This document shows positions 16,376 to 45,981 of a stretch of DNA of 50,396 nucleotides, in pieces. The first letter of the stretch is position 1; each line of letters begins with the position of its first letter. The position numbers and the translations under genes are program-made. The stretch is from a virus. The notes under the pieces were generated by a model. That model was not told where the DNA came from and did not search any database. It saw nothing but the letters and a program-made list of their open reading frames with translations. Location: positions 1 through 50,396 of the IMG/VR virus record IMGVR_UViG_3300030060_005680. One strand, written 5' to 3'.

Positions 16376-16383
16376 TATAAATA
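16376..16383 (+). promoter_or_regulatory. T4-type late promoter TATAAATA
   Basis: TATAAATA starts right after the stop codon of the PhyH-like gene. In T4 late promoters RNA starts about 6-7 nt beyond this box, which here would be 16389-16391, exactly the 5' strand of the riboswitch P1 helix. That fit makes the box more credible than a chance match. Confidence 0.65.
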
Positions 16384-16388
16384 CATAT

Positions 16389-16432: not shown

Positions 16433-16459
16433 ATCTTACTTTTAACAAAGGAGGGTGCT

Positions 16460-16663
16460 GTGAGATATGCAATCAACCAATATCTAAAAAAAGAACGTAC
16501 AAAAAAAAGCCACATAGCTTTATTGAAAACTCGAGGTAATATATTATGTCATCAGAACAGCAAGGTGGGATCAAACCTGAAATATTTCCTGACCACGTTG
16601 AGCTTGAATTTACCTTTACTGAAAACGAGCTATCGTTCAGGGATGCTTTTCTCGAGACGTTAA
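16460..16663 (+). CDS. Short ORF behind the glutamine riboswitch (downstream-peptide type), 67 aa
   Basis: AGGAGG (16449-16454) is spaced 5 nt before a GTG. The encoded peptide begins MRYAINQYLKKERTKK and is very basic at its N-terminus. Glutamine riboswitches of the Downstream-peptide type are defined by such a short ORF. Its 3' half overlaps the start of the PP-loop gene (16546) in another frame, so only the first 30 or so codons are free of that overlap. It may be a real peptide or a leader coupling riboswitch state to the next gene. Confidence 0.5.
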   Translation: MRYAINQYLKKERTKKSHIALLKTRGNILCHQNSKVGSNLKYFLTTLSLNLPLLKTSYRSGMLFSRR

Positions 16664-18133: not shown

Positions 18134-18162
18134 TTGACTAAATAACACGTTAGTAGTATTAT
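18134..18162 (+). promoter_or_regulatory. Sigma70 promoter TTGACT-N17-TATTAT
   Basis: TTGACT (18134-18139) and TATTAT (18157-18162) are 17 bp apart, just after the QueC-like gene. It gives the carbamoyltransferase/radical SAM genes a promoter of their own, besides any read-through from the riboswitch. Confidence 0.6.
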
Positions 18163-18190
18163 ACAATTATAATTGCTTGATAAGGAGTAT

Positions 18191-18448
18191 ATGATGGCAA
18201 AAGACGATACAGATATGAGTCATATCGATCAGAAGCTATTTAAGATGGCTGCAATGATTGATACAACAATCAGATATAACTGCGATGGTATTGATCTCGA
18301 TGAGTTTGAGCAAAACTATCTAAATGTTTGGTTGAAGAAAGAACGAGATCCTTTGATTGTCGTTATTCTAGCAACACTTACTGGTGCTAGAGATCCTAAT
18401 GCAGACGTTGATGGCGAAGGCGAGGTACAAGAAGCAGATGCAGCATGA
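18191..18448 (+). CDS. Hypothetical protein, 85 aa
   Basis: A helical 85-residue protein with an acidic, alanine-rich C-terminal tail (VDGEGEVQEADAA). AAGGAG is placed before the ATG at 18191. Its stop overlaps the carbamoyltransferase start (ATGA), so the two are translated together. Unrecognised. Confidence 0.6.
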   Translation: MMAKDDTDMSHIDQKLFKMAAMIDTTIRYNCDGIDLDEFEQNYLNVWLKKERDPLIVVILATLTGARDPNADVDGEGEVQEADAA

Positions 18449-19866: not shown

Positions 19867-21262
19867 ACGTATTGGACTTATCAGAGATAAGTTAGCTGAT
19901 CAAGTTAGTCCAACATTTTGTTTGGCTAAGTTTCATCACGTAACAATATATCTACAAACTGGTGAGACTCACAGTTGTTATCATCCACCACCACATCACA
20001 TCCCGCTTAAAGAACTTGAGCGGGATGCTTCAGCTCTGCATAATACTGAACAAAAGAAACAAGAACGTAAATTGATGCTCGAAGGTAAGAAACCTAAGGG
20101 CTGTCAGTATTGTTGGAATGTTGAAGCTCTAGGTAAAGAGTATGTCAGTGATAGACATGAACGTAATGCATCTATCCATAGAGATGAGAGAGTAGATGAA
20201 ATAGTCAAACATGGCTACGATCATCATATAAATCCAGAGTACATTGAGATAAGTTTTGGTAATGAATGTCAGTTCAAATGTGGATACTGTCATCCAAAAG
20301 CAAGTAGTAGTTACTGGAAAGAGATAGAGAAGTTTGGTCCGTATGATATGGTTGAAAACCATAGACTGGATATAGATTGGATCAAACTATTCAAACGAGA
20401 AGAAGAGAACCCATATGTTGATGCATGGTGGGAGTGGTGGCCTGAGGTAAGAAAGACTCTTAGTATATTGAGGATAACTGGTGGCGAGCCATTACTTCAA
20501 CAAAGTACTTGGAAGTTATTTGAAAACATTTCTAAATATCCACTACCAGATCTTGAGATCAATACAAATAGTAATCTTGGTATGACTAATAGAATAGTCA
20601 AGAGATTATCCAAGTTTGTAAGAGAGTTTGAAGATGAGAATAAGATTAAAAGATTCAAACTATTCACTTCATTAGATACGTGGGGCTCAAGAGCTGAGTA
20701 TATAAGAACTGGTCTTGATCTAAAAGTATGGGAAGAAAATTTTCATACATATCTAACGGAGACCAATGCCAACATTACATTTATGATGACGTTTAACATA
20801 TTGACCGTCACCACATTCAAGAGTTTGTTAAAGAAAATATTAGAGTGGAGAGAACAGTACCCTGATGTGACAAATGGGGCAGGACAACTACACCGTGTTC
20901 GTTTTGATACGCCATATCTCAAAGAACCGTTACAGTATGATATGAACCTGTTACCCAAGAATCAGTTTATGCATTATATGAATGACTCTTTACAATTTAT
21001 GAAAGATAATGTTAAAGAAGGCGATCCAAAAAAGTTTAGTGATCTTGAGTACTGGAAGTTTAAGAGAGTTGTTGATTACATGCAACTAACAAACTATTCC
21101 AACGAAAGAGTATTAGAAGGTCGTATTGATTTTTACAATTGGTTTAATGAACTTGACAGAAGACGGAATACAAATTTTTACAACACGTTCCCTGAAATGA
21201 AGGAGTTCATGGATCAATGTCAGTCGTTATCAGAAGCCCAGAGCAAAAACAAGAACTCTTAA
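19859..21262 (+). CDS. Twitch/SPASM-type radical SAM protein 1
   Basis: The radical SAM cysteines are C137, C141 and C144 (CQFKCGYC), followed by ITGGEPLL. An N-terminal cysteine region (C21, C40, C82, C85) would bind a further Fe-S cluster, but it lacks the CC pair of its neighbours. It is 467 residues long. It is the most divergent member of the tandem array and begins 8 nt before the carbamoyltransferase ends. It probably opens a tailoring pathway on a small molecule, peptide or sugar; the substrate is unknown. Confidence 0.85.
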   Translation: MDERIGLIRDKLADQVSPTFCLAKFHHVTIYLQTGETHSCYHPPPHHIPLKELERDASALHNTEQKKQERKLMLEGKKPKGCQYCWNVEALGKEYVSDRHERNASIHRDERVDEIVKHGYDHHINPEYIEISFGNECQFKCGYCHPKASSSYWKEIEKFGPYDMVENHRLDIDWIKLFKREEENPYVDAWWEWWPEVRKTLSILRITGGEPLLQQSTWKLFENISKYPLPDLEINTNSNLGMTNRIVKRLSKFVREFEDENKIKRFKLFTSLDTWGSRAEYIRTGLDLKVWEENFHTYLTETNANITFMMTFNILTVTTFKSLLKKILEWREQYPDVTNGAGQLHRVRFDTPYLKEPLQYDMNLLPKNQFMHYMNDSLQFMKDNVKEGDPKKFSDLEYWKFKRVVDYMQLTNYSNERVLEGRIDFYNWFNELDRRRNTNFYNTFPEMKEFMDQCQSLSEAQSKNKNS

Positions 21263-22578
21263 ACGAACGTAAGAGCTTTTGCATATTGCCATGGGTTCAC
21301 TTATATGCAGAACCAGATGGAACAGTGTTTCCATGTTGTACAGCAACACCATTATGGGATGGTGAAATGGGCGAGCCTGGGACTAGGACTGATCCTTACT
21401 TTGCACAATCTAATATAAAAGACAAGTCTATACTAGAGGCTTTGAACACTCCAAACTTCAACAAACTTAGACTAGAAATGTTGAATGGAGAAGAGTTACC
21501 AAGTACTTGTACAAGATGTAAGAGGTTTGAAGATGTTGGTAATGATAGTTACAGACATTATGGTAGACGGCACTTTGGTCAGTTTATAGATGCTATTGAC
21601 AATACAAATGAAGATGGAAGTTTAAAAAAGCTCGATCTAAAGTTCTTGAATGTTAGATTTAGCAATCATTGTAACATGGCATGTCTTACTTGTAATGCTC
21701 AATGGAGCACTTCTTGGTATGATAAGTCTCCTTGGTTATGGAAAGATAAAACAAGAACAAAACTTTTGGATCTTAACGATAACTCTAAGTATCCAATCTG
21801 GGATGAGATAGAACCTTATTTGCACACTGTAGAAAAGATATACTTCACTGGTGGTGAACCATTAATGATGCCAGTGCATTGGAAGATACTCAAGTACTTG
21901 GTTGATAATAATCTTGAAGAGAAAGTAGAGTTACAATACAATACTAATTTAAGTAAATTGAAATTTGGTAAACAACATGCAATGGATTACTGGCCAAAGT
22001 TCAAAGAGATTGATCTTGGACTTAGTATAGATGGAGTTGAAAAAGATATAGAGATAATAAGATGGAATACAAAGTGGAATGATGTTATGGCTAACATTAG
22101 AGAGATAAAAAAGCATGAAAATATACGTTATTCAATAGATACAGTTGTCAGTATCTTCAACATATACCACTTACCAAAAATGGTAAGATACTTTGATAAT
22201 GAAGACTTATTGAAGTACAATACCAATACAGTTGCTAACATTGCTCATGAACCTGAGCCTTTGAGTCTAACATCTATACCTGCAGATATGAAACCAACTA
22301 TAGAAACATTCTTGAAAACAGAATGGGAAAAGTTGCCTATGAAAATCAAAGCCAGATATATCAATGCAAACTGGCAGACGTGTATAGATTATATGTATGC
22401 TCGTGATACATATAACCCTGGAAGACTATCTGAGCATCTTAATAGTACTCTAAAGTTTGCAAAAGATGCTATACTAGACCATATACCATTGTTGAAAATG
22501 ATATACGAACGTGATGCTCCATTTGATAGATGGAACAAGGATATAGGAGAATCTGGTGGCTATAAAGAACCCATCTGA
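21217..22578 (+). CDS. Twitch/SPASM-type radical SAM protein 2
   Basis: An N-terminal SPASM-like cluster region (C22, C40, C41, C98, C101; FCILPWVHLYAEPDG ... FPCC ... CTRC) precedes the radical SAM motif C152-x3-C156-x2-C159 (CNMACLTC) and YFTGGEPLMMP. It is closely related to the next gene over its whole length, which suggests tandem duplication. The start at 21217 overlaps the previous gene by 46 nt. Such proteins bind at least two [4Fe-4S] clusters. Substrate unknown. Confidence 0.85.
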   Translation: MSVVIRSPEQKQELLNERKSFCILPWVHLYAEPDGTVFPCCTATPLWDGEMGEPGTRTDPYFAQSNIKDKSILEALNTPNFNKLRLEMLNGEELPSTCTRCKRFEDVGNDSYRHYGRRHFGQFIDAIDNTNEDGSLKKLDLKFLNVRFSNHCNMACLTCNAQWSTSWYDKSPWLWKDKTRTKLLDLNDNSKYPIWDEIEPYLHTVEKIYFTGGEPLMMPVHWKILKYLVDNNLEEKVELQYNTNLSKLKFGKQHAMDYWPKFKEIDLGLSIDGVEKDIEIIRWNTKWNDVMANIREIKKHENIRYSIDTVVSIFNIYHLPKMVRYFDNEDLLKYNTNTVANIAHEPEPLSLTSIPADMKPTIETFLKTEWEKLPMKIKARYINANWQTCIDYMYARDTYNPGRLSEHLNSTLKFAKDAILDHIPLLKMIYERDAPFDRWNKDIGESGGYKEPI

Positions 22579-23770
22579 TAACGAAAACTTTTGCATACTT
22601 CCATGGATGCATCTGTACGCAGAACCAAACGGTGATGTGTTTCCATGCTGTACGGCTGTACCATATCCAGGAATAGAAGAACTAAAAGGTAGTCTTAAAG
22701 ATAACACATTAGCAGAGATATATCATTCTGATAAGTGGAATAAGCTCAGAAAAGATATGATGGAAGGCAAGAGAAATGATGCTTGTACCAGATGTTGGCA
22801 GTTTGATGATGCAGGAGGATCTTCATACAGAAAACATAACAATAATCTATTTAAGAAGCATTACAATCTTGTAGATCTGACAGATGAAGATGGTAGCATA
22901 GAAGAGTTTCATTTTAAGTCTATAAACATAAGGTTTAGTATAGAATGTAACTTTGCATGTCTTACTTGTGGTCCTTCTTGGAGCACAGGTTGGAACAAAT
23001 ATATTATTGGACCAAAAGGTCCAAACCTCAAAATAGAAGACAACTCAAAAGAGTCTGTATGGGAACAGATCAAAGAACACTTACCAACTGTTGATGAGAT
23101 ATACTTTACTGGTGGTGAGCCATTAATGATGCCTGAACATTATAAGATTCTTGACTATCTAATACAACACGGTCTAACAGATATGACTCTTAGATACAAC
23201 ACCAATATGAGCAATCTAAACTTCTACAAATACAACGTAGTTGATAAGTGGAAGATGTTTAAGAAGGTTGAAGTAGGAGCAAGTATTGATGCATATGGTG
23301 AAAGAGCAGAGCTGATAAGACTTGGTACTAAGTGGCAACAAGTTGAGGATAATTTATTATCTCTCAAAGGTATTGATAACATTAACTTAGGTATTGATAG
23401 TGTTATAAGTATACTGAATGTTGATCATATTCCTAAGTTTCATATCTATCTTGAACACAGAGGAATTGTTGACGAAACAAGTATAATGTCGTACAATATA
23501 GCATTCAGCCCACCAGAATTCAATATACAAGCTATGCCAAGAAGTATAAAAGGGGAGATTGAACAATACCTAGACATACACCTAGAGAACTACTCTGGAC
23601 GGATGACCCATCCCAGATGGGGATTCCCTCAAATCATATCTTTTATGAAGGAGAAGGATACGTGGGATCGATCCAAGTTAGTTCACAATCTTCATTCAAG
23701 ATTCAGACATGTATACAAGGAGATGACGGAGAACATTCCTATTATCAAACAGTGTCTACGACATGACTAA
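22556..23770 (+). CDS. Twitch/SPASM-type radical SAM protein 3
   Basis: Same plan as the preceding gene: C13, C31, C32, C77, C80 in the N-terminal cluster region, then C131-x3-C135-x2-C138 (CNFACLTC) and YFTGGEPLMMP. It starts with GTG, preceded by AGGAG, within the end of the previous gene. At 404 residues it lacks the longer linker found in the 21217 protein. Substrate unknown. Confidence 0.85.
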   Translation: MAIKNPSDNENFCILPWMHLYAEPNGDVFPCCTAVPYPGIEELKGSLKDNTLAEIYHSDKWNKLRKDMMEGKRNDACTRCWQFDDAGGSSYRKHNNNLFKKHYNLVDLTDEDGSIEEFHFKSINIRFSIECNFACLTCGPSWSTGWNKYIIGPKGPNLKIEDNSKESVWEQIKEHLPTVDEIYFTGGEPLMMPEHYKILDYLIQHGLTDMTLRYNTNMSNLNFYKYNVVDKWKMFKKVEVGASIDAYGERAELIRLGTKWQQVEDNLLSLKGIDNINLGIDSVISILNVDHIPKFHIYLEHRGIVDETSIMSYNIAFSPPEFNIQAMPRSIKGEIEQYLDIHLENYSGRMTHPRWGFPQIISFMKEKDTWDRSKLVHNLHSRFRHVYKEMTENIPIIKQCLRHD

Positions 23771-25019
23771 AGAGGCTTATCTAAACAACAAAACATTTTG
23801 TATGTTGCCATGGACTCATTTGCATATGTGGCCCAATGGTGAAACCTATCCTTGTTGTTTAGCAGATTCAAGAATGCCAATTGGAAGCTCTCATGATAAT
23901 ACCATACAAGAGTTGTGGAACAATGATAAGATGAGAGCTATTAGAAATAACATGCTTGAAGGAAGAGAGAGTCTTGAATGTAGAAGATGTTATGAGCAAG
24001 AAAAATCAGGTATACAAACACTAAGAATGTCCAGCAATAAAGAGTTTGCTGATCACTGGTGGAAGGTAGAAGAAACAGAACAAGATGGAAGTGCAGGTAT
24101 GGTGAATATGGCATACCTTGATATCCGTTTCTCAAACCTATGTAATCTAAGATGTCGTACTTGTGGACCTAACTTTAGTACAAGCTGGTATGATGATCAT
24201 GTTAAGATGCATGGTGATCCAGGTATACCTCAACTACTCAAAGTTGGCAAAGATATGGATACATTCTTCAAGGAACTTGAACCTATGTTACTTGATGTCG
24301 AGAAAGTATACTTTGCAGGCGGTGAAGCAATCATAACAGAAGAACATTATAGAGTATTAGACTATTGGTTGCATCACAAAATGACTGATGTTAAGTTAAG
24401 CTATACTACTAACTTTACTAACATGAGATTCAAGAAGAAGACTATCTTTGAATATTGGAATTCATTTGATACTGTAGAAGTGGCTGCTAGTTTAGATGGT
24501 AATCATGAACGAGGTGAGTATCTTAGAAAGAATCTAAAGTGGGATAGAGTTGTACAAAATAGAAAAGACATGATGGAACAATGTCCTAATGTTAGCTTTT
24601 GGATAACACCTACAGTTAGTATATTCAATGTATTCAATGTAGCTGAGTTTCATAAAGAGTGGGTTGATCTAGGATTGTTAGAACCAGAGAACTTTAGAAT
24701 CAATCCGTTGTTAGATCCTGAGTTTTATAGAACACAATGCCTACCAAGAAAATGTAAAAGGATGGTAGAAGAAAAGTATCTTGAATGGATCAAAGAGCTT
24801 AAACAATATGGTAGCAGAGTCGATAAAGTTATTAGTGACTATGAAAGTCTGATTCATTTTATGTGGGAAGAAGATAAGACTCATCATTTGACAGTATTCT
24901 TTGATAAGGTAATCCAGTTGGATAAACTGAGAGGTGAATCCTTTTTTGATACGTATACTGAGTTTGCCAAGTTGAAAGAATATTATTTTACAAATGATTT
25001 TTGGAAGAATCGTGGCTGA
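23763..25019 (+). CDS. Twitch/SPASM-type radical SAM protein 4 (GGEA variant)
   Basis: N-terminal cluster cysteines are C13, C31, C32, C73 and C76; radical SAM cysteines are C127, C131 and C134 (CNLRCRTC). The usual GGEP motif, which contacts the methionine amine of SAM, reads YFAGGEAII here, an unusual Pro-to-Ala change. The ATG overlaps the previous stop by 8 nt. Otherwise it keeps the array architecture. Substrate unknown. Confidence 0.85.
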   Translation: MTKEAYLNNKTFCMLPWTHLHMWPNGETYPCCLADSRMPIGSSHDNTIQELWNNDKMRAIRNNMLEGRESLECRRCYEQEKSGIQTLRMSSNKEFADHWWKVEETEQDGSAGMVNMAYLDIRFSNLCNLRCRTCGPNFSTSWYDDHVKMHGDPGIPQLLKVGKDMDTFFKELEPMLLDVEKVYFAGGEAIITEEHYRVLDYWLHHKMTDVKLSYTTNFTNMRFKKKTIFEYWNSFDTVEVAASLDGNHERGEYLRKNLKWDRVVQNRKDMMEQCPNVSFWITPTVSIFNVFNVAEFHKEWVDLGLLEPENFRINPLLDPEFYRTQCLPRKCKRMVEEKYLEWIKELKQYGSRVDKVISDYESLIHFMWEEDKTHHLTVFFDKVIQLDKLRGESFFDTYTEFAKLKEYYFTNDFWKNRG

Positions 25020-26223
25020 AACATTTTGCATATATCCATGGACAAATATTCATACAAATACTGATGGTAGATGTAAGCTATGTTGTAACATCTATACAGA
25101 AGATTATATAACAATTGATGATAAGTATGCTATTCTAGGTCATCAAGAGTTTGATGAAATATGGCATGGTAAGTATATGACAGATGTTAGAAAGGCAATG
25201 TTACGAGGTGAGCGTATTGATGCGTGCCACAGATGTTACGAGCATGAAGAAAAAGGATTAGAAAGTTCAAGGCAATGGGCAAATGCAAACTTCTTTACTG
25301 AGAGTTTAGATCCAGTATTTGATCCAAATTTACTTGAACTAAGACTTGGTAATGTATGTAACTTAAAGTGTAGTGGATGCTGGGCTGTAAGTTCTGATCA
25401 ATTGTACAATGAAAGAAAAAGGATACTTGATAATGAGAAGGTTCCTCAATGGTTACAGAATGTATGGCGACATGAGTTGGACAGTGTTGATCAGTTTGAT
25501 TATGATTGGTTCAATACACCAATGTTTGACAAATTCATTGATAGAGTGGCGCCTAATCTCAAAAGATTGTATCTTACGGGAGGAGAACCAACGCTCATCC
25601 AAAAAAACAGAGAGATCCTAGACAAGTTAGTAGAAGTTGGTAACAATGAGTGTTATGTATGTTGGACTACTAATCTTACTAATTTTCCAGATGAGTTTTA
25701 TGACAAATTAGAATTCTTTGATGAGTCAGAGATCCAGATGAGTATTGATGGATATGAAATGACTAACTCATATGTAAGATATCCAACCAATTGGAAATCA
25801 GTAGAAAAGAACTTTGCAAAGGCTCAGCAGTTAACTGAGAAGTGTATACTAAAAGTATACTTTGTATATCAAGCATGGAATGTATATGATGTAACAAAAG
25901 TAATAAGATGGATAGAACGTAATCAAAAACGTAGAGTAGACTTTGTTCCTATCTTTCTTGAAAGCCCAGATTACATTCACAGCTGTGTGTGGCCAGAAGA
26001 AATGAGAATAGATGTAGTAAAGAAACTACAAGCATTTGATACACAATATGAAGGTGCAATACGCAACATAATAAACTATACAAAAAATACAGATAAGTAT
26101 AAAGGCGAGCTTATCAATAAAATGAGAACGTATATACACTTCCTTGATAAGTATAGGAAGTATAAATTTGAAGATGTATTTCCAGATATGGTTAAAGTGA
26201 TATCTCATGCCCACCCTGACTAA
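25012..26223 (+). CDS. Twitch/SPASM-type radical SAM protein 5
   Basis: From the GTG at 25012 the N-terminal cluster cysteines are C6, C21, C24, C25, C72 and C75, and the radical SAM motif CNLKCSGC is at C116, C120 and C123; YLTGGEPTL follows. I prefer this GTG, with GGAAG before it, over the ATG at 24994, which has no Shine-Dalgarno sequence. The cluster is followed by WAVSSDQLYNERKR, different from the WSTSW of its neighbours, so the substrate pocket probably differs. Confidence 0.8.
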   Translation: MAETFCIYPWTNIHTNTDGRCKLCCNIYTEDYITIDDKYAILGHQEFDEIWHGKYMTDVRKAMLRGERIDACHRCYEHEEKGLESSRQWANANFFTESLDPVFDPNLLELRLGNVCNLKCSGCWAVSSDQLYNERKRILDNEKVPQWLQNVWRHELDSVDQFDYDWFNTPMFDKFIDRVAPNLKRLYLTGGEPTLIQKNREILDKLVEVGNNECYVCWTTNLTNFPDEFYDKLEFFDESEIQMSIDGYEMTNSYVRYPTNWKSVEKNFAKAQQLTEKCILKVYFVYQAWNVYDVTKVIRWIERNQKRRVDFVPIFLESPDYIHSCVWPEEMRIDVVKKLQAFDTQYEGAIRNIINYTKNTDKYKGELINKMRTYIHFLDKYRKYKFEDVFPDMVKVISHAHPD

Positions 26224-27169
26224 AATTGTACCAGCCAAAGAAAAATGGTTGAGTATTGTTTGGCAAGTAAATGACTTTTGTAACTTTCGTTGCACATATT
26301 GCAATGAAGGAAACTGGGGTGGTAGGTTTAAACATGAGGATGATATTGATAAGATCCTCACAACATTAGACTACATCATAGATCTGTATCAGGATCGTGG
26401 TTATCGCTACTTTAAACTGTTTCTAAGTGGTGGTGAGCCTACTCTATGGCCAGGACTCATACCAACCATAGAACTGTTTAGAGAGCGTGTAGAGTTCCCT
26501 GGAAGCTGTGTTGGTATCAACACAAACCTATCAAGAGGTCTGAAATGGTGGCAAGAAAACTACACTTTGTTTGATGACATAGTAGCAAGCTATCATGCAG
26601 AATTTACAAAAGATGACAGATACTTTGAGAACTATAATTGGTTATGTACAAGAATAGCATATATGTGTGCCAGAGTAATGATGCATAAAGATAAGTGGGA
26701 CCAATGTATTGCTATGACAGAGAGACTCAAAGAGTGTACAAACCACATTATTGACTATGTGCCAGTGTTAGATTCTCTTAGACCAGACACAGAAGAATAT
26801 CATTATGATGAGGACTATCAGATTGAGTTTTTCAAATCTAATCCAGATGTAAAGACAACCAATTTTACTATATTCAAAGATCCAAATTATGCTTATGCAA
26901 ATATGGTTGTTGATGGTGAAGAAATGCCAATAGAATCAAATATGATAATGCAAAATGGTTGGAACTTCTGGAAGGGTTGGGAATGTAACATACAAGACAG
27001 TCTCCACATATATCCAGATGGAAGAATAAGGCAAGCCAGTTGTGGTGTAGGACCAATAGTAGGTAATATAGCTGGCAAGTTTGACTCAAGTAATATCAAA
27101 CCAATAATTTGTCCAAAGCATCATTGCCATTGTGCTGCTGATTTCAATATTGCAAAAGGTCCAATATAA
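26207..27169 (+). CDS. Radical SAM protein 6, reversed domain order (C-terminal SPASM)
   Basis: Here the radical SAM motif CNFRCTYC is at the N-terminus (C25, C29, C32) with FLSGGEPTL, while the SPASM-like cysteines come at the end (WECNIQDS ... ASCGVGPIVGN ... ICPKHHCHC). This is the classical SPASM layout and the reverse of the other array members. At 320 residues it is shorter. It overlaps the neighbours by 17 nt and 1 nt. Substrate unknown. Confidence 0.85.
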   Translation: MPTLTKIVPAKEKWLSIVWQVNDFCNFRCTYCNEGNWGGRFKHEDDIDKILTTLDYIIDLYQDRGYRYFKLFLSGGEPTLWPGLIPTIELFRERVEFPGSCVGINTNLSRGLKWWQENYTLFDDIVASYHAEFTKDDRYFENYNWLCTRIAYMCARVMMHKDKWDQCIAMTERLKECTNHIIDYVPVLDSLRPDTEEYHYDEDYQIEFFKSNPDVKTTNFTIFKDPNYAYANMVVDGEEMPIESNMIMQNGWNFWKGWECNIQDSLHIYPDGRIRQASCGVGPIVGNIAGKFDSSNIKPIICPKHHCHCAADFNIAKGPI

Positions 27170-28527
27170 TGCATTGTTATTATGCTATGAACGGTTTGAG
27201 TATAAACTACGATGGTAGAGTAAGGCCGTGTTGTGTTGCAAAAAAATTAAAGACTATAACAGGAACTCCTGGTGTAGTCAACTCTCATGACTTAGAATGG
27301 ATCAATACTTGGCCAATAAAAATGGACAATGGTAAGTATGGATTCCAACCACAGATACAAGCAGTGAATCATATTAAAGAACTTCTTAATGATCCTGTGC
27401 TGTGTCATCTAAGAGAGAAACTAAAGAAGAATAGAAGACCTGCAGAATGCGAGAGATGTTTCTATGTTGAGGATCAAGGTGGATTCTCATATAGAATGGA
27501 TGCAAACGAAACACATAAACATCTTATCCATGAAGATTCTATCCAAGAAGAAGATGGGATACTAAGTGACATGGAGCACATTTCATACTTAGATATCACT
27601 CTTGGTAATGTGTGTAACTTACAATGTAAGACGTGTAATCCGTGGAGTAGTCATAACTGGTTAGAAGAAGCTCAAGCCATACCTCATCAAGAATACAAAC
27701 CAGAATACATTCATTACTTGAAGAAAGGTAGAGAAGACCCTTGGTTTGTTAGAGCATTCAGAGAAAGATTTTTTGATCCCATACTTGGTCAATTAAGAAC
27801 AATTAACTTCCTTGGTGGTGAGCCATTGGTTGTTAAAGAACACTATGAGTGGTTGAAGTATATCATTAACAAAGGATGGGCAAAGAATAAAACACTACAA
27901 TACACATCTAATGGAACTACGATACCTAATGCATTGATTGATATTTGGTCACACTTTGAACATGTAAATCTTGGTATAAGTGTAGATGCAGTTGGTGACA
28001 AAGCATACTATATAAGGCATCCTAGTAAATGGTCAGTGATTGAGAAGAACTTCGACAAACTAAGACATAGGTGTAAAGAGGTTAAGCATATCAATGTGCA
28101 GCTGCATACAACAGTCAGTATGCTTAACATCTTAGACATCGGCGAAGTGTATGAGTTTTCGAGGAATCAATATAAGAAATTTCACTATATCAATAGAGAA
28201 ACCAAGCATCCTCACGGTTATATTAACATACTTCCTCATATCAATATTGTTGACTTCCCTAGGTATTACCATATCCGCCATCTACCTACTGAGTTGAAAC
28301 ACCAAGCAGTTAAACATATAGAGTTGACTTATGATCGAGTAAAGGGTACAATAGAAAATGATTGGGAACAAGATAATCTCAACAACCTAAATAACTTAGC
28401 AAAAATTATTATGGAAGACCGTGACCCTCATATGTGGGACCAATTCTTAGATGTGCAAAGAGCATCAGATAAATTTAGAAAGTTAAAAGGAAGCGATTAC
28501 ATACCATGGATGAGACAGTATGTCTGA
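27169..28527 (+). CDS. Twitch/SPASM-type radical SAM protein 7
   Basis: The N-terminal cluster region (C3, C21, C22, C94, C97; GLSINYDGRVRPCC ... CERC) precedes C149-x3-C153-x2-C156 (CNLQCKTC) and FLGGEPLVV. Its start shares a base with the stop of the previous gene. The TCNPWSSHNWLEEA segment after the cluster is conserved with the Trp-Ser motif of other array members. Last radical SAM gene of the array; the SGNH-like gene follows by overlap. Substrate unknown. Confidence 0.85.
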   Translation: MHCYYAMNGLSINYDGRVRPCCVAKKLKTITGTPGVVNSHDLEWINTWPIKMDNGKYGFQPQIQAVNHIKELLNDPVLCHLREKLKKNRRPAECERCFYVEDQGGFSYRMDANETHKHLIHEDSIQEEDGILSDMEHISYLDITLGNVCNLQCKTCNPWSSHNWLEEAQAIPHQEYKPEYIHYLKKGREDPWFVRAFRERFFDPILGQLRTINFLGGEPLVVKEHYEWLKYIINKGWAKNKTLQYTSNGTTIPNALIDIWSHFEHVNLGISVDAVGDKAYYIRHPSKWSVIEKNFDKLRHRCKEVKHINVQLHTTVSMLNILDIGEVYEFSRNQYKKFHYINRETKHPHGYINILPHINIVDFPRYYHIRHLPTELKHQAVKHIELTYDRVKGTIENDWEQDNLNNLNNLAKIIMEDRDPHMWDQFLDVQRASDKFRKLKGSDYIPWMRQYV

Positions 28528-29413
28528 AGTAGAATATGATCACATATACGAAGCTAACAAATCTAGTTGGAACGGATATGATAGTTACAATGGTGTGCTT
28601 ATATCTCTTGGTTGCAGTCACACAGCTGGTAGTGAGACACTAGGTGTTGGTGATAGTGATGAGCAAAGACAGTTATCTTACGGTGCTAAGATTGCAGAGA
28701 AATGGAACTACCAGCACTTAAACTATGCACAGTGTGGTGGTAGCAATCATAGAATATTTGATCAGTTCTGTACAATTATGAATGATATAGAAACTGGATA
28801 TGGTTACTATGCTCCTATAAGAGAAGACTACAATTACTTCTTTCTGATAGGATGGACTAGTCTGAATAGACTTGATTTAAGATATAAACAAGAAGATGAT
28901 AATGAGTGGAAACAAGCTGGTGATTATGGTCTAAGAGCAGACAATAAATACATTCCAGCAACTGTTGGTACTAATCCACTTATGCTTAAAGACAAAGAGA
29001 TACGTAAGGCATTTGATATGGCATATGTTTGGGCAGATGATGTAATTGCTGCTAACAGACTTGCATCGTACATCTATGCTATACAAGGTATGATGATTAC
29101 ATCTCCATACAAATATTATATGTTCAATGCAATAGAAAACTTTTATGATACACATACATCAAACCCTCCTAAGCCACATCGAGACATTACGTTCCCTCCT
29201 TTTGTAGGCAATCAAAAGATTTACTATAACATTGATGAGAGATTTTATTACAAGCCCATGGACAAACATTTTAACTATTATAGATGGTGCACTGAGGTTA
29301 AAGGTCATTCACCAAAAAGCCAAACATATTGGCATCTTGGAGAACAAGCTCATATAGATTGGGCAGAACATATTTACCCGGAGATAATTAATGCTTATCC
29401 AGATTTGGCATAG
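28520..29413 (+). CDS. SGNH-like hydrolase-fold protein
   Basis: LISLGCSHTAGSET at about residues 27-40 is a Gly-Cys/Asp-Ser block I variant, and IGWTSLNRLDL sits where block III/IV residues are expected. The C-terminal HLGEQAHIDWAEHI may hold the catalytic His. The Asp of the classical GDS motif is replaced by Cys (GCS), seen also in other phage SGNH-like proteins. It ends the radical SAM operon by overlap, so it may act on the same product, for instance as an acyltransferase or esterase. Confidence 0.65.
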   Translation: MSEVEYDHIYEANKSSWNGYDSYNGVLISLGCSHTAGSETLGVGDSDEQRQLSYGAKIAEKWNYQHLNYAQCGGSNHRIFDQFCTIMNDIETGYGYYAPIREDYNYFFLIGWTSLNRLDLRYKQEDDNEWKQAGDYGLRADNKYIPATVGTNPLMLKDKEIRKAFDMAYVWADDVIAANRLASYIYAIQGMMITSPYKYYMFNAIENFYDTHTSNPPKPHRDITFPPFVGNQKIYYNIDERFYYKPMDKHFNYYRWCTEVKGHSPKSQTYWHLGEQAHIDWAEHIYPEIINAYPDLA

Positions 29414-29510
29414 TTTTATTGATTGGATAACATATCCATACATAAGATACAAAAGAAGAAAGAGACTTGCAGAGATCCGTAAACACGATCCATTTATCTA
29501 TGAGGAATGA
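29391..29510 (+). CDS. Small conserved phage protein ending DPFIYEE, 39 aa
   Basis: GGAG lies 8 nt before an ATG inside the end of the SGNH-like gene. The peptide has an amphipathic start (MLIQIWHSFIDWITYPYIRY), a basic stretch and the ending RKHDPFIYEE. A basic stretch closing with DPFIY is a pattern I associate with small marine T4-like phage proteins of unknown role. It probably lies at the membrane. Confidence 0.6.
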   Translation: MLIQIWHSFIDWITYPYIRYKRRKRLAEIRKHDPFIYEE

Positions 29511-29513
29511 GTG

Positions 29514-29765
29514 ATGGCACTATATACTATCTACACCAGAGATCTATGTGGCTTTTGTGATGCAGCAAAGGCACTTATGGATTCATTGAGTCTTCCATAC
29601 GAAGAACTTAATCTTGAATCACATCCACACCACAGAGATGAGTTACTTTCAAAAGTACCTCCTGGAACTACTACTGTTCCACAAATATTTGTTGGTGACC
29701 TACACATTGGTGGCTTTGATGACTTCAAAGTATATGTAGAGGAATCAGTACAGAGCGGAAGATAA
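29514..29765 (+). CDS. grx: Glutaredoxin
   Basis: An 83-residue thioredoxin-fold protein with the dithiol CGFC active site (residues 12-15 of MALYTIYTRDLCGFC), a TTVPQIFVGD cis-Pro segment and GGFDDF. It reduces disulphides with glutathione and in T4-like phages can serve ribonucleotide reductase. Dithiol glutaredoxins can also carry or protect Fe-S sites, relevant to the neighbouring radical SAM genes. ATG 29514 is preferred, with GAGGAA before it. Confidence 0.9.
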   Translation: MALYTIYTRDLCGFCDAAKALMDSLSLPYEELNLESHPHHRDELLSKVPPGTTTVPQIFVGDLHIGGFDDFKVYVEESVQSGR

Positions 29766-29771
29766 TTTATT

Positions 29772-30743
29772 ATGGTAAAATTGACAATAATGGACAGTGG
29801 TCCAGAAAAAAATGAGTTGAATAAAAATGCTTGGGGTGGTACTGAGCTTATGCAAAATAGATTGTATAAGGAGATGCCAAAAGATCTGATTGATCAATTC
29901 CAAATTATTTGTTCAAGACCTCGTAAGCTAAAAGAAGATAAGAAGAAGATACTTTGGTGTCATGATCTTGCACAAGATCCTGAAGTAGAACATTTGAAAG
30001 ATGGTGGTCATGAGAAGTATGACAGACTTGTGTTTGTATCTCATTGGCAATTTCAAGACTATATGTATCATCTTGGTATACCTCATTCATCAGGTTATGT
30101 TCTTCAAAATGCTATTGATCCAATAGATGAACATGAAAAGCCAACAGATGAGATCAATCTCGTATACTTTTCAACACCACATAGAGGGTTGGATATATTG
30201 GTTCCAGTGTTTGAGGAGATGAGAAACAATCACTTTAAGAGTATAAAGAAACCAGTCAATCTACATGTATACTCTAGTTTCAAATTGTATGGATGGCCCG
30301 AGAGGGATAAAGAACACAAAGCTCTAATTGATAAGTGTAAGAATACAGAAGGTATTCATTATCATGGAGCTGTACCAAATGCAGAGATGAGAGAAAACCT
30401 AAAGAGAATGCATATCCTTGCATACCCATGTGTGTGGCCTGAGACAAGTTGTATAGTTCTTATGGAAGCTATGTCAGCAAAGTTATTATGTGTTCACAGT
30501 TCATTTGCTGGGTTACCAGAGACAGCTGCTAACTGGACTATGATGTATCCAGTACATGAAGTAGCTAATGATCATGCTCAGATCTTTGCACAGAACTTGT
30601 TCAATGCTGTATCATTAGTAGATGACAGTGCATTACAAGATAGGTTACATATGCAAAAACAATATACTGATGCATTTTACAATTGGGATGTGAGAGCTAT
30701 GCAGTGGAAAATATTTTTGGAAGGCTTAGCAAATGGGGGTTGA
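29772..30743 (+). CDS. Glycosyltransferase (GT-B, GT4-like)
   Basis: A 323-residue GT-B protein: NAWGGTELM near the N-terminus could bind the donor, and the C-terminal HGAVPNAEMRENL ... AYPCVWPETSCIVLMEAMSAKLLCVHSSFAGLPE is the GT4-type E-x7-E nucleotide-sugar region. It transfers a sugar to an unknown acceptor, perhaps the product of the preceding gene cluster or a phage structure. It follows glutaredoxin by 6 nt. Confidence 0.8.
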   Translation: MVKLTIMDSGPEKNELNKNAWGGTELMQNRLYKEMPKDLIDQFQIICSRPRKLKEDKKKILWCHDLAQDPEVEHLKDGGHEKYDRLVFVSHWQFQDYMYHLGIPHSSGYVLQNAIDPIDEHEKPTDEINLVYFSTPHRGLDILVPVFEEMRNNHFKSIKKPVNLHVYSSFKLYGWPERDKEHKALIDKCKNTEGIHYHGAVPNAEMRENLKRMHILAYPCVWPETSCIVLMEAMSAKLLCVHSSFAGLPETAANWTMMYPVHEVANDHAQIFAQNLFNAVSLVDDSALQDRLHMQKQYTDAFYNWDVRAMQWKIFLEGLANGG

Positions 30744-39443: not shown

Positions 39444-39678
39444 ACGACCTTTAGAGTTCAAAATCACCGTTCTTGCAATGTATGAGAACAACTATATCAC
39501 TGCAAAGCAGGCTTTCAGAATTGCTTGTACAAAGTTCAATCAGAAGCCGTCTGGATGCATGACTAAATACGCTGGAAGCTATATTAGAGACTACCAGAAC
39601 GAGATCAAAGCAAAATTGTTCGATAAAGATGGCCGAACAATGCTGCTATGTAAAGAGAATGGATTATATGGGTTTTAA
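39436..39678 (+). CDS. Hypothetical protein, 80 aa
   Basis: GGAGG precedes the ATG at 39436. A basic helical protein (KRPLEFKITVLAMYENNYITAKQAFRIACTKF), perhaps helix-turn-helix-like; not recognised. Overlaps both neighbours by a few bases. Confidence 0.6.
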   Translation: MSKRPLEFKITVLAMYENNYITAKQAFRIACTKFNQKPSGCMTKYAGSYIRDYQNEIKAKLFDKDGRTMLLCKENGLYGF

Positions 39679-40705
39679 GTTTTATAAAAAGGATATCCCA
39701 GACTGTGATACAGTTGACTCTTTCCTCAGACGAGAGACTGATATTGAAGAAAGAGTCAACAACGTAAAAAGAGCCTGGGCATGGCCACACAAGATATACA
39801 GACTGGAAATGAATCTTCCAGTCAGTAACTTACAAGCTGCTGTTGAAGCAGCTTTCAGTATGTTTGGGTGGCATGGATTTTTGATAGCAAACTTTGGTGA
39901 GGGATACGGAGCATCAGATCTCCGTAGCCAAAGACTTGGTGGTCTATCTATTACATACAATCCAGACTTCAGACAATCAGATATCAATATAAACTGTCAA
40001 ACACTAGGTAACAGGAAGTTCAATCTTCCACCAGAGATGTATGCTGGTAAAAGAGGCAATGAGATATTTGAACAGGTTAATATAAAAGACTTGCGTGTTG
40101 AGTTCTTTGATCAAGTAAACAATCATGGAGCTGGCCACGCATGGGACTTCTTATACAGTAAAGATATTATCACTCATGAAGTATGGTCAAAAGAGAGATC
40201 GTATTATCATCAGTGGAAGTATAATCCAGCCGCAAAGAACCAAACCGGTAAGAACACCTATAGCGATGCTCTCGGATTTAATCGATTGACACCGGCTTGT
40301 GAATCTGGCTACCTTGGGGAAGTGTTCAGTCAGATACCTAGAACAATAGTTCGTGGTCGCATTGTGGAGATGAAGTCTGGTGATTTGCATTGGCATCGTG
40401 ACGAATCCTTCTATATGAACTTTCGTATTAACATTCCTTTGTATTTGGATAAAACAGCATACATAGCAACTGAAGATGAACAAATGCTTATGCATCCTGG
40501 CTATATGTATCATTTTGATACGGGACAACCGCATGCTGTTATAAGAAAAAAAGGAGAAATATCCAAAAGAATTAATATTATTTTGGGTGTCAGTCCTTGG
40601 TTCGATTGGAATGATGAAGACCAATCATGGGAACAGAATGAGTTCTATGGAAAGATGCATCCGGTAGAAATGTTTCATGAAGGATTGCTTGTTGACTTTG
40701 TATAG
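39668..40705 (+). CDS. Putative 2OG-Fe(II) hydroxylase (aspartyl-hydroxylase-like)
   Basis: LHWHRDESFYMNFRINIPLYLD, HPGYMYHFDTGQPHAVI and KRINIILGV show an HxD...H iron site and a closing Arg of aspartyl/asparaginyl-hydroxylase type near residues 240-310. The first 200 residues are not recognised. ATG 39668 is close to the previous stop; ATG 39659 is an alternative. It lies directly before the tmRNA. Substrate unknown; one of five such oxygenases in the window. Confidence 0.6.
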   Translation: MGFKFYKKDIPDCDTVDSFLRRETDIEERVNNVKRAWAWPHKIYRLEMNLPVSNLQAAVEAAFSMFGWHGFLIANFGEGYGASDLRSQRLGGLSITYNPDFRQSDININCQTLGNRKFNLPPEMYAGKRGNEIFEQVNIKDLRVEFFDQVNNHGAGHAWDFLYSKDIITHEVWSKERSYYHQWKYNPAAKNQTGKNTYSDALGFNRLTPACESGYLGEVFSQIPRTIVRGRIVEMKSGDLHWHRDESFYMNFRINIPLYLDKTAYIATEDEQMLMHPGYMYHFDTGQPHAVIRKKGEISKRINIILGVSPWFDWNDEDQSWEQNEFYGKMHPVEMFHEGLLVDFV

Positions 40706-40722
40706 TGTTTGAAGTATAAATA
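40692..40722 (+). promoter_or_regulatory. Overlapping sigma70-like and late promoters for the tmRNA
   Basis: TTGACT (40692-40697) and TATAAA (40715-40720) are 17 bp apart, and TATAAATA (40715-40722) at the same place is a T4-type late box. RNA would start near 40729, at the beginning of the acceptor piece. The upstream hydroxylase gene ends inside this region. Confidence 0.6.
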
Positions 40723-40727
40723 TAATG

Positions 40728-40980
40728 TGATGTTGAGGTGAACTCAAAACAATTCTGGACACCGGGGCAGTACCGGTCGGGTCCACCACAAGTACATTAA
40801 GGTGTATTTCTGATGGGCTCGAAATAGGATCGACAGGTTGACAATAGGAACACGGAGTCACAAGGCTGACCGCTTAATAGGTCAAAATAGTAAATGCAAA
40901 CGATAATTTTGCATCTGATGATTTAGCTCTTGCAGCTTAATTGATCGGGGTCCGGAGGTACCTGGCAACAGAAACCTCCA
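40728..40980 (+). ncRNA. ssrA: Circularly permuted two-piece tmRNA, alphaproteobacterial type
   Basis: The acceptor piece comes first: GGAC, T stem ACCGG/CCGGT with loop GGCAGTA (40761-40777), 3' acceptor strand CGGGTCC and ACCA (40778-40788). After a 26-nt spacer (40789-40814) the coding piece opens with GGGCTCG (40815-40821), which pairs with that acceptor strand over 7 bp including G3-U70, the alanine identity pair. The D-like region GGATCGACAGG follows. The tag starts at GCA 40896: ANDNFASDDLALAA, stop 40938-40940. A pseudoknot-like GGTCCGG...ACCTGGCAACAG...CCTCC ends it. It would rescue stalled ribosomes and tag proteins for proteolysis; ends are approximate. Confidence 0.9.
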
Positions 40981-40999
40981 CTTTATTAGGAGGAGAGGC

Positions 41000-41350
41000 A
41001 TGGTAGCAAGTCCAATAGAACTAACAGACAGTGCTAAAAACTATCTTCAAAACGCAGCTATAAATAGTGGCAAACAGTATGTCTGGTTTGGTGTTGAAGG
41101 TGGAGGATGTAGTGGATTTCAATATGCTTGGAAGTTTATCGATGATCCTGATCCATCAGATTACAAGATGAGTATTGGTAACGATCCATCTGACTTCAGA
41201 GAACTGTTTTTTGTAATAGATGTAGTTAGTGAGATGCATGTACTTGGTTCTACAATAGATTATGTTCAAGAGCTTGGTGGTTCATTTCTCAAAGTAAACA
41301 ATCCTTTGGCAACAGCAGGTTGTGGATGTGGAGAGAGCTTTAGTGTATGA
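41000..41350 (+). CDS. A-type Fe-S carrier (IscA/ErpA/HesB family)
   Basis: The three family cysteines are present: GGGCSGFQY and the C-terminal CGCG. It is 116 residues, the usual length, with the FxxD/DVVS stretch between. A-type carriers pass [4Fe-4S] clusters to target proteins. AGGAGG precedes the ATG, and the gene overlaps the next by ATGA. Homologues are known in marine phages. With eight radical SAM proteins in this window, a role in maturing them is plausible. Confidence 0.9.
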   Translation: MVASPIELTDSAKNYLQNAAINSGKQYVWFGVEGGGCSGFQYAWKFIDDPDPSDYKMSIGNDPSDFRELFFVIDVVSEMHVLGSTIDYVQELGGSFLKVNNPLATAGCGCGESFSV

Positions 41351-43689: not shown

Positions 43690-44228
43690 TGTTGAAGAGA
43701 GTGACAATCGTGACTGCATTAGGTGTTACTTTGTGGTCTGGAGCATTAGTATCAGCTAGTGAGCCGATTACAGATGCAGAACACAAACAAAGATTCTGTA
43801 TGGCAGAAGCTCTATTCTTTGAAGCTGGTAACCAGCCTATGATAGGAATATTAGGTGCTGCTGAAGTTATATTGAATAGAGTTAAGAGTGATAGATGGCC
43901 AGACACTGTATGTGATGTGGTACATCAAGGTCCACTGAATAAGTGGTGGCAGAAGAGAGGTAAAACAGTTCCTGTCAAATGGAAGTGTCAGTTTACATAT
44001 TGGTGTGATGGCAAAAGCGATGATGTATCCAACATTGTTGGTACCAAGACTTGGGCTAAGGTTATCAAAGCTGTGAACTTTATTTACAGTCAGTTTGGAA
44101 AATTACAACGTGATGGCATATCAATTACTAATGGTGCTACTCACTATCATACAACAAAAGTCAATCCAAGATGGGGACAACTATTGGAACATACAATTAC
44201 AATTCAAGATCATAAGTTTTTTCGATGA
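43689..44228 (+). CDS. SleB-type cell wall hydrolase with signal peptide
   Basis: A signal peptide (MLKRVTIVTALGVTLWSGALVSA) is followed by FCMAEALFFEAGNQPMIGILGAAEVILNRVKS, the catalytic Glu region of SleB/CwlJ-type (Hydrolase_2) enzymes that cut peptidoglycan. The start is ATG 43689, with AAAGGA before it, in the previous stop (TAATG). Exported form suggests a role in lysis or in reshaping the cell wall, or an exolysin-like activity. Confidence 0.8.
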   Translation: MLKRVTIVTALGVTLWSGALVSASEPITDAEHKQRFCMAEALFFEAGNQPMIGILGAAEVILNRVKSDRWPDTVCDVVHQGPLNKWWQKRGKTVPVKWKCQFTYWCDGKSDDVSNIVGTKTWAKVIKAVNFIYSQFGKLQRDGISITNGATHYHTTKVNPRWGQLLEHTITIQDHKFFR

Positions 44229-44461
44229 TAGAGTTAAAGATAAATACTCCATCTCAGTTCGCTATGGAAATTGAAAAGATAGTCAAAGATAAATCTATTG
44301 AATATCTTGATGCTGTAATGTACTACGTTGAGAAGAATGGTATAGAGGTTGAGACTGCTGCTTCATTAATCAAGAGTAGTCAAATTCTAAAAGCTAAGAT
44401 TGCAACAGAAGCTGAAGACCTTCGGCTTCTAAAAACAAAAGGAGCTCGCTTACCATTATGA
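44225..44461 (+). CDS. 33: Late transcription co-activator gp33
   Basis: The 78-residue product matches marine T4-like gp33 (MIELKINTPSQFAMEIEKIV...YLDAVMYYVEKNGIEVETAASLI). In T4, gp33 bridges RNA polymerase and the sliding clamp to activate late promoters with gp55; this agrees with TATAAATA boxes found in the window. It overlaps SleB-type and gp59 genes by 4 nt each. The order 33-59-32 is that of T4 relatives. Confidence 0.85.
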   Translation: MIELKINTPSQFAMEIEKIVKDKSIEYLDAVMYYVEKNGIEVETAASLIKSSQILKAKIATEAEDLRLLKTKGARLPL

Positions 44462-45036
44462 ATGCTCATGAAACATATCAGAAATATATGGCACTGAAAA
44501 GACACTTCACGTCAGATTATGATATTTTCAAGTACAATGGCAAAGTAAAAAATACAGAACACTCTAGGTTTGAAGTTAGAAGAGATAAGATGTTCTTTCA
44601 TAAGTTATCTAAGTTGAAGAACCCAGATGACTTTATGTTAGCTAATATGTTGCAGAACATTAACTTCTGGCCTGGTGATATAAACAATATGGAGACTCAT
44701 GCTGTCTATGCTAACTGGCAAAAAAGACAACAGAGTATGTCATATATGTTCAAACAAGACCTCATGAAGTTGAAAGAATCATATGATGAGAATATTTTAA
44801 CTAAGGGTGATACACATCCTTATCTTATGAGGTTAGTTATTAGAGAAGATGTTGGTGTCGAGACTATGATAGTCATGAATGAACTAACACCCTTCTTTGA
44901 TTACTGGACCAAAAAACTTGGTCTGGATATGGTCTGGCAAGACCTACACAAGAAAGCTGAGAAATATAAGCCTTTCTTTATAAATACTGTTGACTTATCA
45001 AAGTATAAGTCGTATATTATGGAACGCTTTGAATAA
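44458..45036 (+). CDS. 59: Helicase loader gp59
   Basis: A 192-residue basic helical protein with the marine T4-like gp59 pattern (ETYQKYMALKRHFTSDYDIFKYNGKVK ... NFWPGDINN). T4 gp59 loads the gp41 helicase on gp32-coated forks. It is shorter than T4's 217. It overlaps gp33 by 4 nt and carries promoter-like boxes for gp32 near its end. Confidence 0.85.
   Translation: MNAHETYQKYMALKRHFTSDYDIFKYNGKVKNTEHSRFEVRRDKMFFHKLSKLKNPDDFMLANMLQNINFWPGDINNMETHAVYANWQKRQQSMSYMFKQDLMKLKESYDENILTKGDTHPYLMRLVIREDVGVETMIVMNELTPFFDYWTKKLGLDMVWQDLHKKAEKYKPFFINTVDLSKYKSYIMERFE
44979..45018 (+). promoter_or_regulatory. Nested late box and TTGACT-N17-TATATT promoter before gp32
   Basis: TATAAATA (44979-44986) and, just after it, TTGACT (44990-44995) 17 bp before TATATT (45013-45018) lie within gp59. 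Both would drive gp32. A late box inside gp59 recalls T4 gene 32 regulation, but chance cannot be excluded. Confidence 0.5.
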
Positions 45037-45075
45037 AACGTATACATCGCATATATCGCACATAAGGAGAAACAT

Positions 45076-45981
45076 ATGTCGCTTGCACAATGGAAGAAGA
45101 AGAACTCTACGTCTAATATAGATAAATTGACTGAAGAGTTAAGTAAACTCACTGATAAAGGTCCACGTCGTGATGACGATGGGTTCTGGAAACCTGAAGT
45201 AGATAAGTCTGGTAATGGCTCTGCTATTATTAGATTCTTACCATCTCCAGATTCAGATGTACCCTTTGTACGTATCTGGGATCATGGATTCCAAGGTCCT
45301 GGTGGATGGTTCATTGAGAAATCACTAACCACTATCAATCAAGCCTGTCCTATTTCTGAGTATAACTCTATGCTGTGGAACTCTGGTACAGAAGCTGATA
45401 AGACGTTTGTTCGTACTAAGACTAAACGTCGACTATCCTTTATCTCTAACATAGTTGTGATTAAGGATCCTTCACGACCTGAGAATGAAGGGCAAGTATT
45501 CTTGTATAAGTTTGGCAAGAAAATCTTTGATAAGATCAATGATGCTGCTATGCCTGAGTTTGATGATGAGGAAAAGGTTGATGCATTCTCTCTTGGAGAA
45601 GGTGCTAACTTTAGACTCAAGATTCGTAATGTAGAAGGATATCGTAACTATGATAAGTCTGAGTTTGACTCACCTTCTGAGATTCCAGAAGACGACTTAG
45701 AAGGTATCTACAATCAATTGAAGCCTTTACAGGAACTTGTAGATCCTAAGAACTTTAAGTCTTACGATGAACTTAAAACAAAGCTCTATAGAGTTCTTGC
45801 TTTAGGTGGCGGTGAGACTGCTAATACAATAACTGCTGATGAGTTGTCTGAAGTTAAACAGGCTCCTGCACCAGCAGCAGCACCATCACAACCAGCTGCT
45901 GCGTCAGCTCCATGGGATGAACAATCCAATGATGATGACGACGATGGTCTATCTTTCTTTAAGAAGCTGGCAGACGAATAG
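45076..45981 (+). CDS. 32: Single-stranded DNA-binding protein gp32
   Basis: The 301-residue product shows the gp32 layout: an N-terminal cooperativity region (LAQWKKKNSTSNIDKLTEEL), the OB core (IIRFLPSPDSDVPFVRIWDHGF), and an acidic Asp-rich C-terminal tail (NDDDDDGLSFF). It coats single strands in replication and works with gp59 and Rnh. Oddity: the zinc-site CPxC of T4-like gp32 reads CPIS (second Cys replaced), so the zinc ribbon is probably lost. AAGGAG precedes the ATG. Confidence 0.9.
   Translation: MSLAQWKKKNSTSNIDKLTEELSKLTDKGPRRDDDGFWKPEVDKSGNGSAIIRFLPSPDSDVPFVRIWDHGFQGPGGWFIEKSLTTINQACPISEYNSMLWNSGTEADKTFVRTKTKRRLSFISNIVVIKDPSRPENEGQVFLYKFGKKIFDKINDAAMPEFDDEEKVDAFSLGEGANFRLKIRNVEGYRNYDKSEFDSPSEIPEDDLEGIYNQLKPLQELVDPKNFKSYDELKTKLYRVLALGGGETANTITADELSEVKQAPAPAAAPSQPAAASAPWDEQSNDDDDDGLSFFKKLADE

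Follow-up and report, generated by a model that had tools for sequence, protein, structure and literature searches.

Trans-translation is usually regarded as a host housekeeping function, and a phage that carries a tmRNA gene raises the question of where this gene belongs, when it would be expressed and what it would do for a phage whose hosts have an ssrA of their own, a point that we count against the functional reading given below. We address it here for the window, i.e., the whole stretch of DNA analysed (50,396 nucleotides, IMG/VR virus record IMGVR_UViG_3300030060_005680).

Anatomy of the tmRNA gene

ARAGORN found a single tmRNA in the whole window, in the permuted form, at 40696-41031 on the + strand, with the tag ANDNFASDDLALAA. 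A cmscan of the window gave matches above the curated gathering cut-offs to both RF01849 alpha_tmRNA (40688-40982, + strand, 141.1 bits, E 1.3e-38, cut-off 50 bits) and RF04321 tmRNA_permuted (40726-40940, + strand, 123.7 bits, E 8.2e-24, cut-off 47 bits). The three results agree with the claim of a preliminary description of this DNA, which had seen a permuted two-piece tmRNA of the alphaproteobacterial type in a phage and had named the Infernal search with RF01849 as a check. The details given there are also correct in the window. The acceptor piece lies 5' of the coding piece, and the acceptor stem is formed between the pieces by seven pairs (GGGCTCG at 40815-40821 with CGGGTCC at 40778-40784, the third being G-U and the fifth U-G). 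The alanine identity pair G3-U70 is present, the T-loop is GGCAGTA, the acceptor end is ACCA, and the tag frame runs from an alanine resume codon to an AA end (the tag closes with LALAA) and the stop codon TAA. As for the extent that had been proposed, 40692-40980, the gene is there, but the RNA is better bounded at about 40727-40982, with the promoter elements starting at 40692. The 5' end of the acceptor piece was placed from the promoter spacing and the outer P2 helix, and the 26-nt spacer hairpin would presumably be excised. When both pieces were folded jointly by minimum energy, the tmRNA fold was not recovered with any reliability, and folding was left out of the evidence. Judged from its sequence, the window carries a genuine-looking and functional-looking permuted two-piece tmRNA gene (Table 1).

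Table 1. Coordinates of the tmRNA gene, its promoter elements and its neighbours in the window
Feature	Position	Strand	Basis or remark
-35 element TTGACT, sigma70-like	40692-40697	+	17 nt before TATAAATA
TATAAATA, T4-type late promoter box, possibly also -10 (TATAAA)	40715-40722	+	Position and relatives
Acceptor piece	40727-40788	+	RF01849/RF04321; predicted mature length ~62 nt, CCA end
Outer P2 helix, 5' strand	40727-40731	+	Partner 40857-40861
T arm, T-loop GGCAGTA	40761-40777	+	Pairing in relatives
Acceptor stem 3' strand, discriminator A and CCA	40778-40788	+	
Spacer hairpin between the pieces, 26 nt	40789-40814	+	
Coding piece (5' acceptor strand, P2 strands, PK1, tag, 3' hairpin)	40815 to ~40982	+	ARAGORN, cmscan, pair comparison
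PK1 first stem TGACC/GGTCA	40867-40884	+	
Tag frame ANDNFASDDLALAA, then stop TAA	40896-40937, stop to 40940	+	ARAGORN
3' hairpin GGAGGT...ACCTCC	40954-40979	+	
A-type Fe-S carrier gene (IscA-like)	41000-41350	+	PF01521, 45.4 bits; ribosome-binding site 40988
gp33 late-transcription coactivator, gp59 helicase loader, gp32 ssDNA-binding protein	44225-45981	+	PF16805, 68.3 bits; phrog_269, phrog_224

Conservation and lineage of the phage tmRNAs

As close relatives we took the loci whose gp59 or gp32 most resembles that of the window. The stretch between the ORF at 39629-40705 and IscA was present in 11 such loci (nine contigs), all 11 with the tmRNA gene. MAFFT put the 5' acceptor strand wrongly in one clade, so pairs were counted by a script from fixed anchors. 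Between the window and seven relatives (L186-L190, L192 and L193), 10 of the 29 base pairs had two-sided changes that kept the pairing, with few events behind them because some of the seven are identical in all stems, and a single cell in 232 was unpaired. The outer P2, for instance, is GUGAU/GUCAC in the window and GUAAU/GUUAC in L187, L188, L192 and L193, while the fourth PK1 pair is C-G in the window and L186 and T-A in L187-L190, L192 and L193. The spacer hairpin varies in sequence and length among the close relatives; the segment with the 3' hairpin (40941-40985) shows 91-98% identity in L186, L188, L189 and L193, the four relatives compared for it. ARAGORN gave the tag ANDNFASDNLALAA for L186, ANDNIASDNFALAA for L189, L190 and L196, and the tag of the window for L193 and L194.

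One sub-group (L187, L188, L192-L195 and L197) has another acceptor stem, T arm and P2 than the window, with the T-loop TGCAAAT in the members checked, yet its IscA protein shares 97% identity with that of the window. For L188 and L193, the acceptor piece has an identity of 0.60-0.61 with that of the window, and the 3' hairpin segment one of 0.96-0.98. Phages that are almost the same on either side thus have different tRNA-like domains (40727-40860 in the window). This pattern suggests that the domain has been swapped between phages; several of the two-sided changes would then have arrived as one block and would not be independent events.

A wider sample was drawn from IMG/VR with the 17-base pattern GAAATAGGATCGACAGG, which is present in at least 120 stretches. 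With the window and three named phages added, the set comprised 124 loci, and ARAGORN called a permuted tmRNA in 78 of them, i.e., in 74 of the 120 IMG/VR matches listed. The preliminary description had held a permuted form in a phage to be notable; this count speaks against it, as do the tmRNAs that Buchholz et al. reported in 2022 from 402 phages, with 133 unique structures of which 53 are two-piece (PMC9004378). With that publication, the two-piece tmRNA of marine phages is already known in kind. Another source, which also describes RF04321, puts the number of bacteriophage tmRNA sequences at 79 (PMC11915505).

The acceptor piece was searched for by a T-loop motif and CCA, pairing not being required. 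From 121 core-bearing loci (window included) we thus came to 101 with an acceptor piece and, after removal of near-copies, to 56; the 20 without one, cut by the contig end or with another T-loop, were left out of the counts. Among the 56 distinct loci listed, pairing was 100% in the acceptor stem, 100% in the T stem and 85% in the inner P2, against 85, 76 and 73%, respectively, when partners were swapped between loci; the 17-base search pattern itself partly fixes the final pair of the acceptor stem and the initial ones of P2. G3-U70 and ACCA were invariant (56/56), and the spacer between the pieces ranged from 5 to 352 nt. In the outer P2, measured in 94 loci, the longest Watson-Crick helix averaged 5.21 with the locus's own partner vs. 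4.39 (sd 0.08) with swapped ones. On the stems kept paired through two-sided change in the close relatives, and on the pairing in the 56 loci, we rejected a chance resemblance or a pseudogene. It should be noted that PF16805 (gp33) was matched in 12 of 50 long records, 11 of them above the cut-off, so that a T4-like nature is established for only some of the pattern-selected phages.

The Rhodobacter phages RcSimone-Hastad and RcRudolph have a permuted tmRNA with the tag ANDNVRMDAQALAA behind a HIRAN gene. It is unannotated in both records and in RcRudolph is overlapped by a hypothetical protein. Eight permuted tmRNA matches fell in the Rhodobacteraceae bin G047 (L125, L137 and L143-L149), at least one of them with the phage-type TATAAATA promoter (L125/L144); these loci are probably phage contigs binned with the bacterium.

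The 78 ARAGORN calls among the matches listed contain 63 distinct tags. Such variety might be expected if the phage tmRNA targeted selected proteins, its tag sending host proteins to proteolysis for amino acids or directing them to some other fate. We hold this to be very unlikely. tmRNA is known to act on stalled ribosomes rather than on chosen proteins, and all 63 distinct tags listed end in AA (49 of them in LAA), as in an ordinary degradation tag, even if proteolysis of host proteins for amino acids has been proposed for the phage Melnitz (PMC9004378).

The phage tmRNAs were compared with those of bacteria, taken from the class of one alphaproteobacterial genome plus four named alphaproteobacterial loci; these rows were mostly the best-scoring or most similar matches, and some genomes were present twice. 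In a tree of 60 phage and 51 distinct bacterial tmRNAs, which is unrooted, one branch parts the two sets with a support of 100/98, and a smaller tree with 56 phage and 22 bacterial rows has the same split (99/93); the bootstrap was unsettled in both. The two sets also differ in structure. In the bacteria inspected, the acceptor piece opens with an extra 5' hairpin, e.g., GTCGGGAAACCGAC before TATGGCGATAAACG, that is missing from the phage acceptor pieces inspected, where the TATAAATA box stands in its place. As far as sequence comparison goes, the phage tmRNAs appear to be a lineage apart from the bacterial ones sampled.

This bears on whether the gene might be a passively captured host gene, or the remnant of an integration site, with no role. 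Host ssrA genes do serve as prophage integration sites (PMC9004378), but no tyrosine integrase was found in the window or in eight other long records of tmRNA phages, the phage rows are split from the 51 bacterial ones by the single branch mentioned, the pairing has been kept through change, and a dedicated promoter motif stands before the gene. We give a gene with no role barely any credence, and the remnant of an integration was rejected on the tree split and the nine long records.

Locus and promoter

A second sample consisted of 37 contigs picked by gp59/gp32 similarity and having at least 4.5 kb of upstream sequence (39 loci, two of them dropped as second copies; several, such as L193-L195, are near-copies). 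RF04321 was above the cut-off in 25 of the 37. In 22 of these 25 contigs the tmRNA precedes gp33 or gp59 by 0.5-5 kb on the same strand; in L263 it lies 9 kb upstream, and in L230 and L271 far away. ARAGORN misses members, since together with the motif it recovered 17 of the 39 loci, vs. 25 of 37 contigs for RF04321. The tmRNA beside gp33-gp59-gp32 is thus a recurring locus in this sample. In the window, the ribosome-binding site of the IscA-like gene is directly 3' of the tmRNA.

Four bases separate the TATAAATA box from the outer P2 helix of the acceptor piece, and the RNA would start at about this helix (40727). Its significance was assessed in 95 distinct phage loci with 7/7 acceptor pairs, at least 4/5 T pairs and 110 nt of upstream sequence. 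An exact TATAAATA was found 37-58 nt before the T stem in 57 of them, where shuffled sequences gave a mean of 0.39 and at most 5, and 19 more had it with one mismatch; RcSimone-Hastad is among those lacking it (four mismatches). At bacterial tmRNA genes it was absent from all 60 loci (51 distinct), even with one mismatch allowed. TTGACA with at most one mismatch lay 16-18 nt upstream of the exact TATAAATA in 48 of the 57 loci (36 of them perfect); the same loci contain 117 other TATAAATA sites, of which 7 have such an element. Among the loci selected by gp59/gp32, TATAAATA was exact in 9/22 and within one mismatch in 20/22, while a -35 element within one mismatch was present in 10/22, eight of these being close kin of the window; five had the late-type box with no -35, and two (L233 and L273) had neither.

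Over the whole window TATAAATA is not enriched (6 sites vs. 4.6 expected), so the promoter claim rests on its position and on the relatives. Association of T4 markers with NATAAATA in the locus was not found (21 yes and 8 no with markers, 43 and 23 without, p 0.64), a test weakened by short loci. In Melnitz, 19 of the 25 TATAAATA sites are 10-80 nt before an annotated start, including those of capsid, sheath and prohead genes; a perfect TTGACA accompanies the tmRNA site and no other of the 25, with a single mismatch at one more. The promoter of the window, TTGACT-N17-TATAAA, has 10 of the 12 sigma70 consensus positions, and its -10 lacks the final T, which is why a standard sigma70 scan did not list it. 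Its GTTGACT resembles the other sigma70-type promoters of the window. Motifs of the form GTTGAC[TC]-N16/17-TATAAT-like are found at 2298, 4281, 5255, 8898, 18157 and 39268 on the + strand and at 38705 and 39177 on the - strand, and are probably early promoters of this phage.

The preliminary description had taken the box as a sign of late expression. A late-type box is indeed present, but with TTGACT 17 nt upstream it is at most half of the picture, and from these motifs the promoter looks early plus late rather than simply late. A reading in which the RNA is the right one, expressed only late from TATAAATA, with TTGACT a chance neighbour or contacting something else, strikes us as unlikely. 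It would suit the gp59/gp32-selected loci that have the box with no -35, the poor -10 that TATAAA makes, the late-box appearance of TATAAATA in Melnitz and its report as a late box in cyanophages and T4 (PMC2984593), but it leaves unexplained the TTGACA-like element at fixed spacing in 48/57 loci vs. 7/117 elsewhere and the match of GTTGACT to other promoters of the window. The early-plus-late promoter is well supported for the group of the window, for Melnitz and for many pattern-selected loci; given the -35 counts and the poor -10, it is not general. In the search listings and passages of freely available literature that were covered, we met with no phage tmRNA described as having a promoter for both early and late use.

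Another TATAAATA box, with no -35, lies at 16376 in the window, starting 12 nt before a glutamine riboswitch (RF01739, 50.4 bits, 16388-16435) directly behind it; the ORFs that follow start at 16460 and 16546. This riboswitch was present in 5 of 50 records searched, those of the window and Melnitz included.

Proposed role and known systems

We consider it probable that the gene is a functional permuted ssrA from a lineage that resides in marine T4-like phages, with a dual promoter, processing and charging by the host, and a role in ribosome rescue and tagging. The gene, its structure, conservation, locus and promoter motifs, and the lack of a detectable SmpB gene, are what is observed; from them we infer the timing and start of transcription, the processing, charging, rescue and tagging, as follows. 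Host sigma70 RNA polymerase would transcribe the gene early, and the phage late sigma with gp33 late, from the same start, where the acceptor piece begins. The spacer hairpin would be cut out by tRNA-processing enzymes of the host, leaving the two pieces held together by the acceptor stem and P2, and host AlaRS would charge the RNA via G3-U70. Host SmpB and EF-Tu would then deliver it to ribosomes stalled on broken mRNA, which are expected to be frequent during the destruction of host mRNA, and the tag ending in LALAA would direct the product to host proteases. For the phage, the pay-off would be a steady supply of free ribosomes. During T4 infection, host SsrA has been reported to stay stable while host tRNAs are degraded (PMC9697503).

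No SmpB gene was found in the 50 and 37 phage records searched, many of them fragments, while the same search matched 10 of 14 control genomes, and the host SmpB is presumably used. The lack of SmpB would also fit a decoy that ties up the SmpB of the host and so blocks its trans-translation, in the manner of the DS6A RNA, which has the tRNA-like domain only; inhibition of tmRNA by DS6A-like RNA has been described (PMC4131195, PMC11915505). Against this, the tag frame, PK1 and the 3' hairpin are all kept in the window and its close relatives, which makes a decoy highly improbable, and a decoy with no tag (DS6A type) was rejected on the presence of the tag frame. Ribosome rescue seems the best reading of the role of the window tmRNA.

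More tentatively, and with doubts on our side, the wider picture may be that of an old tmRNA lineage of marine T4-like phages at gp33-gp59-gp32, in which the acceptor piece is trimmed and the transcription start sets its 5' end, in many cases with a single promoter element that host sigma70 would read before the phage late sigma does, providing rescue throughout infection independently of the host gene. What the analysis adds is that the phage tmRNAs form a lineage apart, that their acceptor piece is trimmed, that the locus recurs and that the promoter is probably both early and late. If true, the dual promoter would let the phage rescue stalled ribosomes at all stages of infection, and the keeping by phages of the RNA half of trans-translation under such a promoter would mean that stalled ribosomes limit marine T4-like phages. 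The locus lets the timing of the tmRNA and the tagged proteins be addressed in cultured phages such as Melnitz.

Melnitz (MZ577095-MZ577098) is T4-like, and its two-piece tmRNA is described as following an early promoter and directly preceding the gene for the coactivator, with a permuted tmRNA in 17 of 47 Melnitz-like contigs (PMC9004378). Like the window, it has a permuted alpha-type tmRNA upstream of gp33-gp59-gp32, preceded by TTGACA-N17-TATAAATA (TTGACT in the window), and both fall in the same 13-row group of the tree (support 95/76). In contrast, its tag is ANDNYVPVDYALAA, and an IscA-like gene follows the tmRNA in the window. The glutamine riboswitch of Melnitz (45146-45194) overlaps the annotated 3' end of the tmRNA, whereas that of the window is 24 kb away, and a riboswitch-coupled tmRNA as in Melnitz was rejected for the window.

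The RF01849 tmRNAs of Alphaproteobacteria share with the phage ones the permuted order, the GGCAGTA/GGCGGTA T-loop, G3-U70, tags that mostly begin ANDN and the 3' hairpin, but have the extra 5' hairpin where the phages inspected have the promoter box, and they are on the other side of the tree. Overlapping early and late promoters are reported for RB49, S-PM2 and Syn9, where one gene is preceded by an early motif of the sigma70 type as well as by a late NATAAATA motif (PMC2984593); in the window, unlike in that report, a single element seems to act as the -10 and as the late box, and what is transcribed is an RNA gene. Elsewhere in the window, the region 15500-30743 carries genes for a PhyH dioxygenase, a QueC-like protein, a Nol-like carbamoyltransferase and several radical SAM/SPASM proteins and glycosyltransferases, perhaps a surface-sugar or modification cluster.
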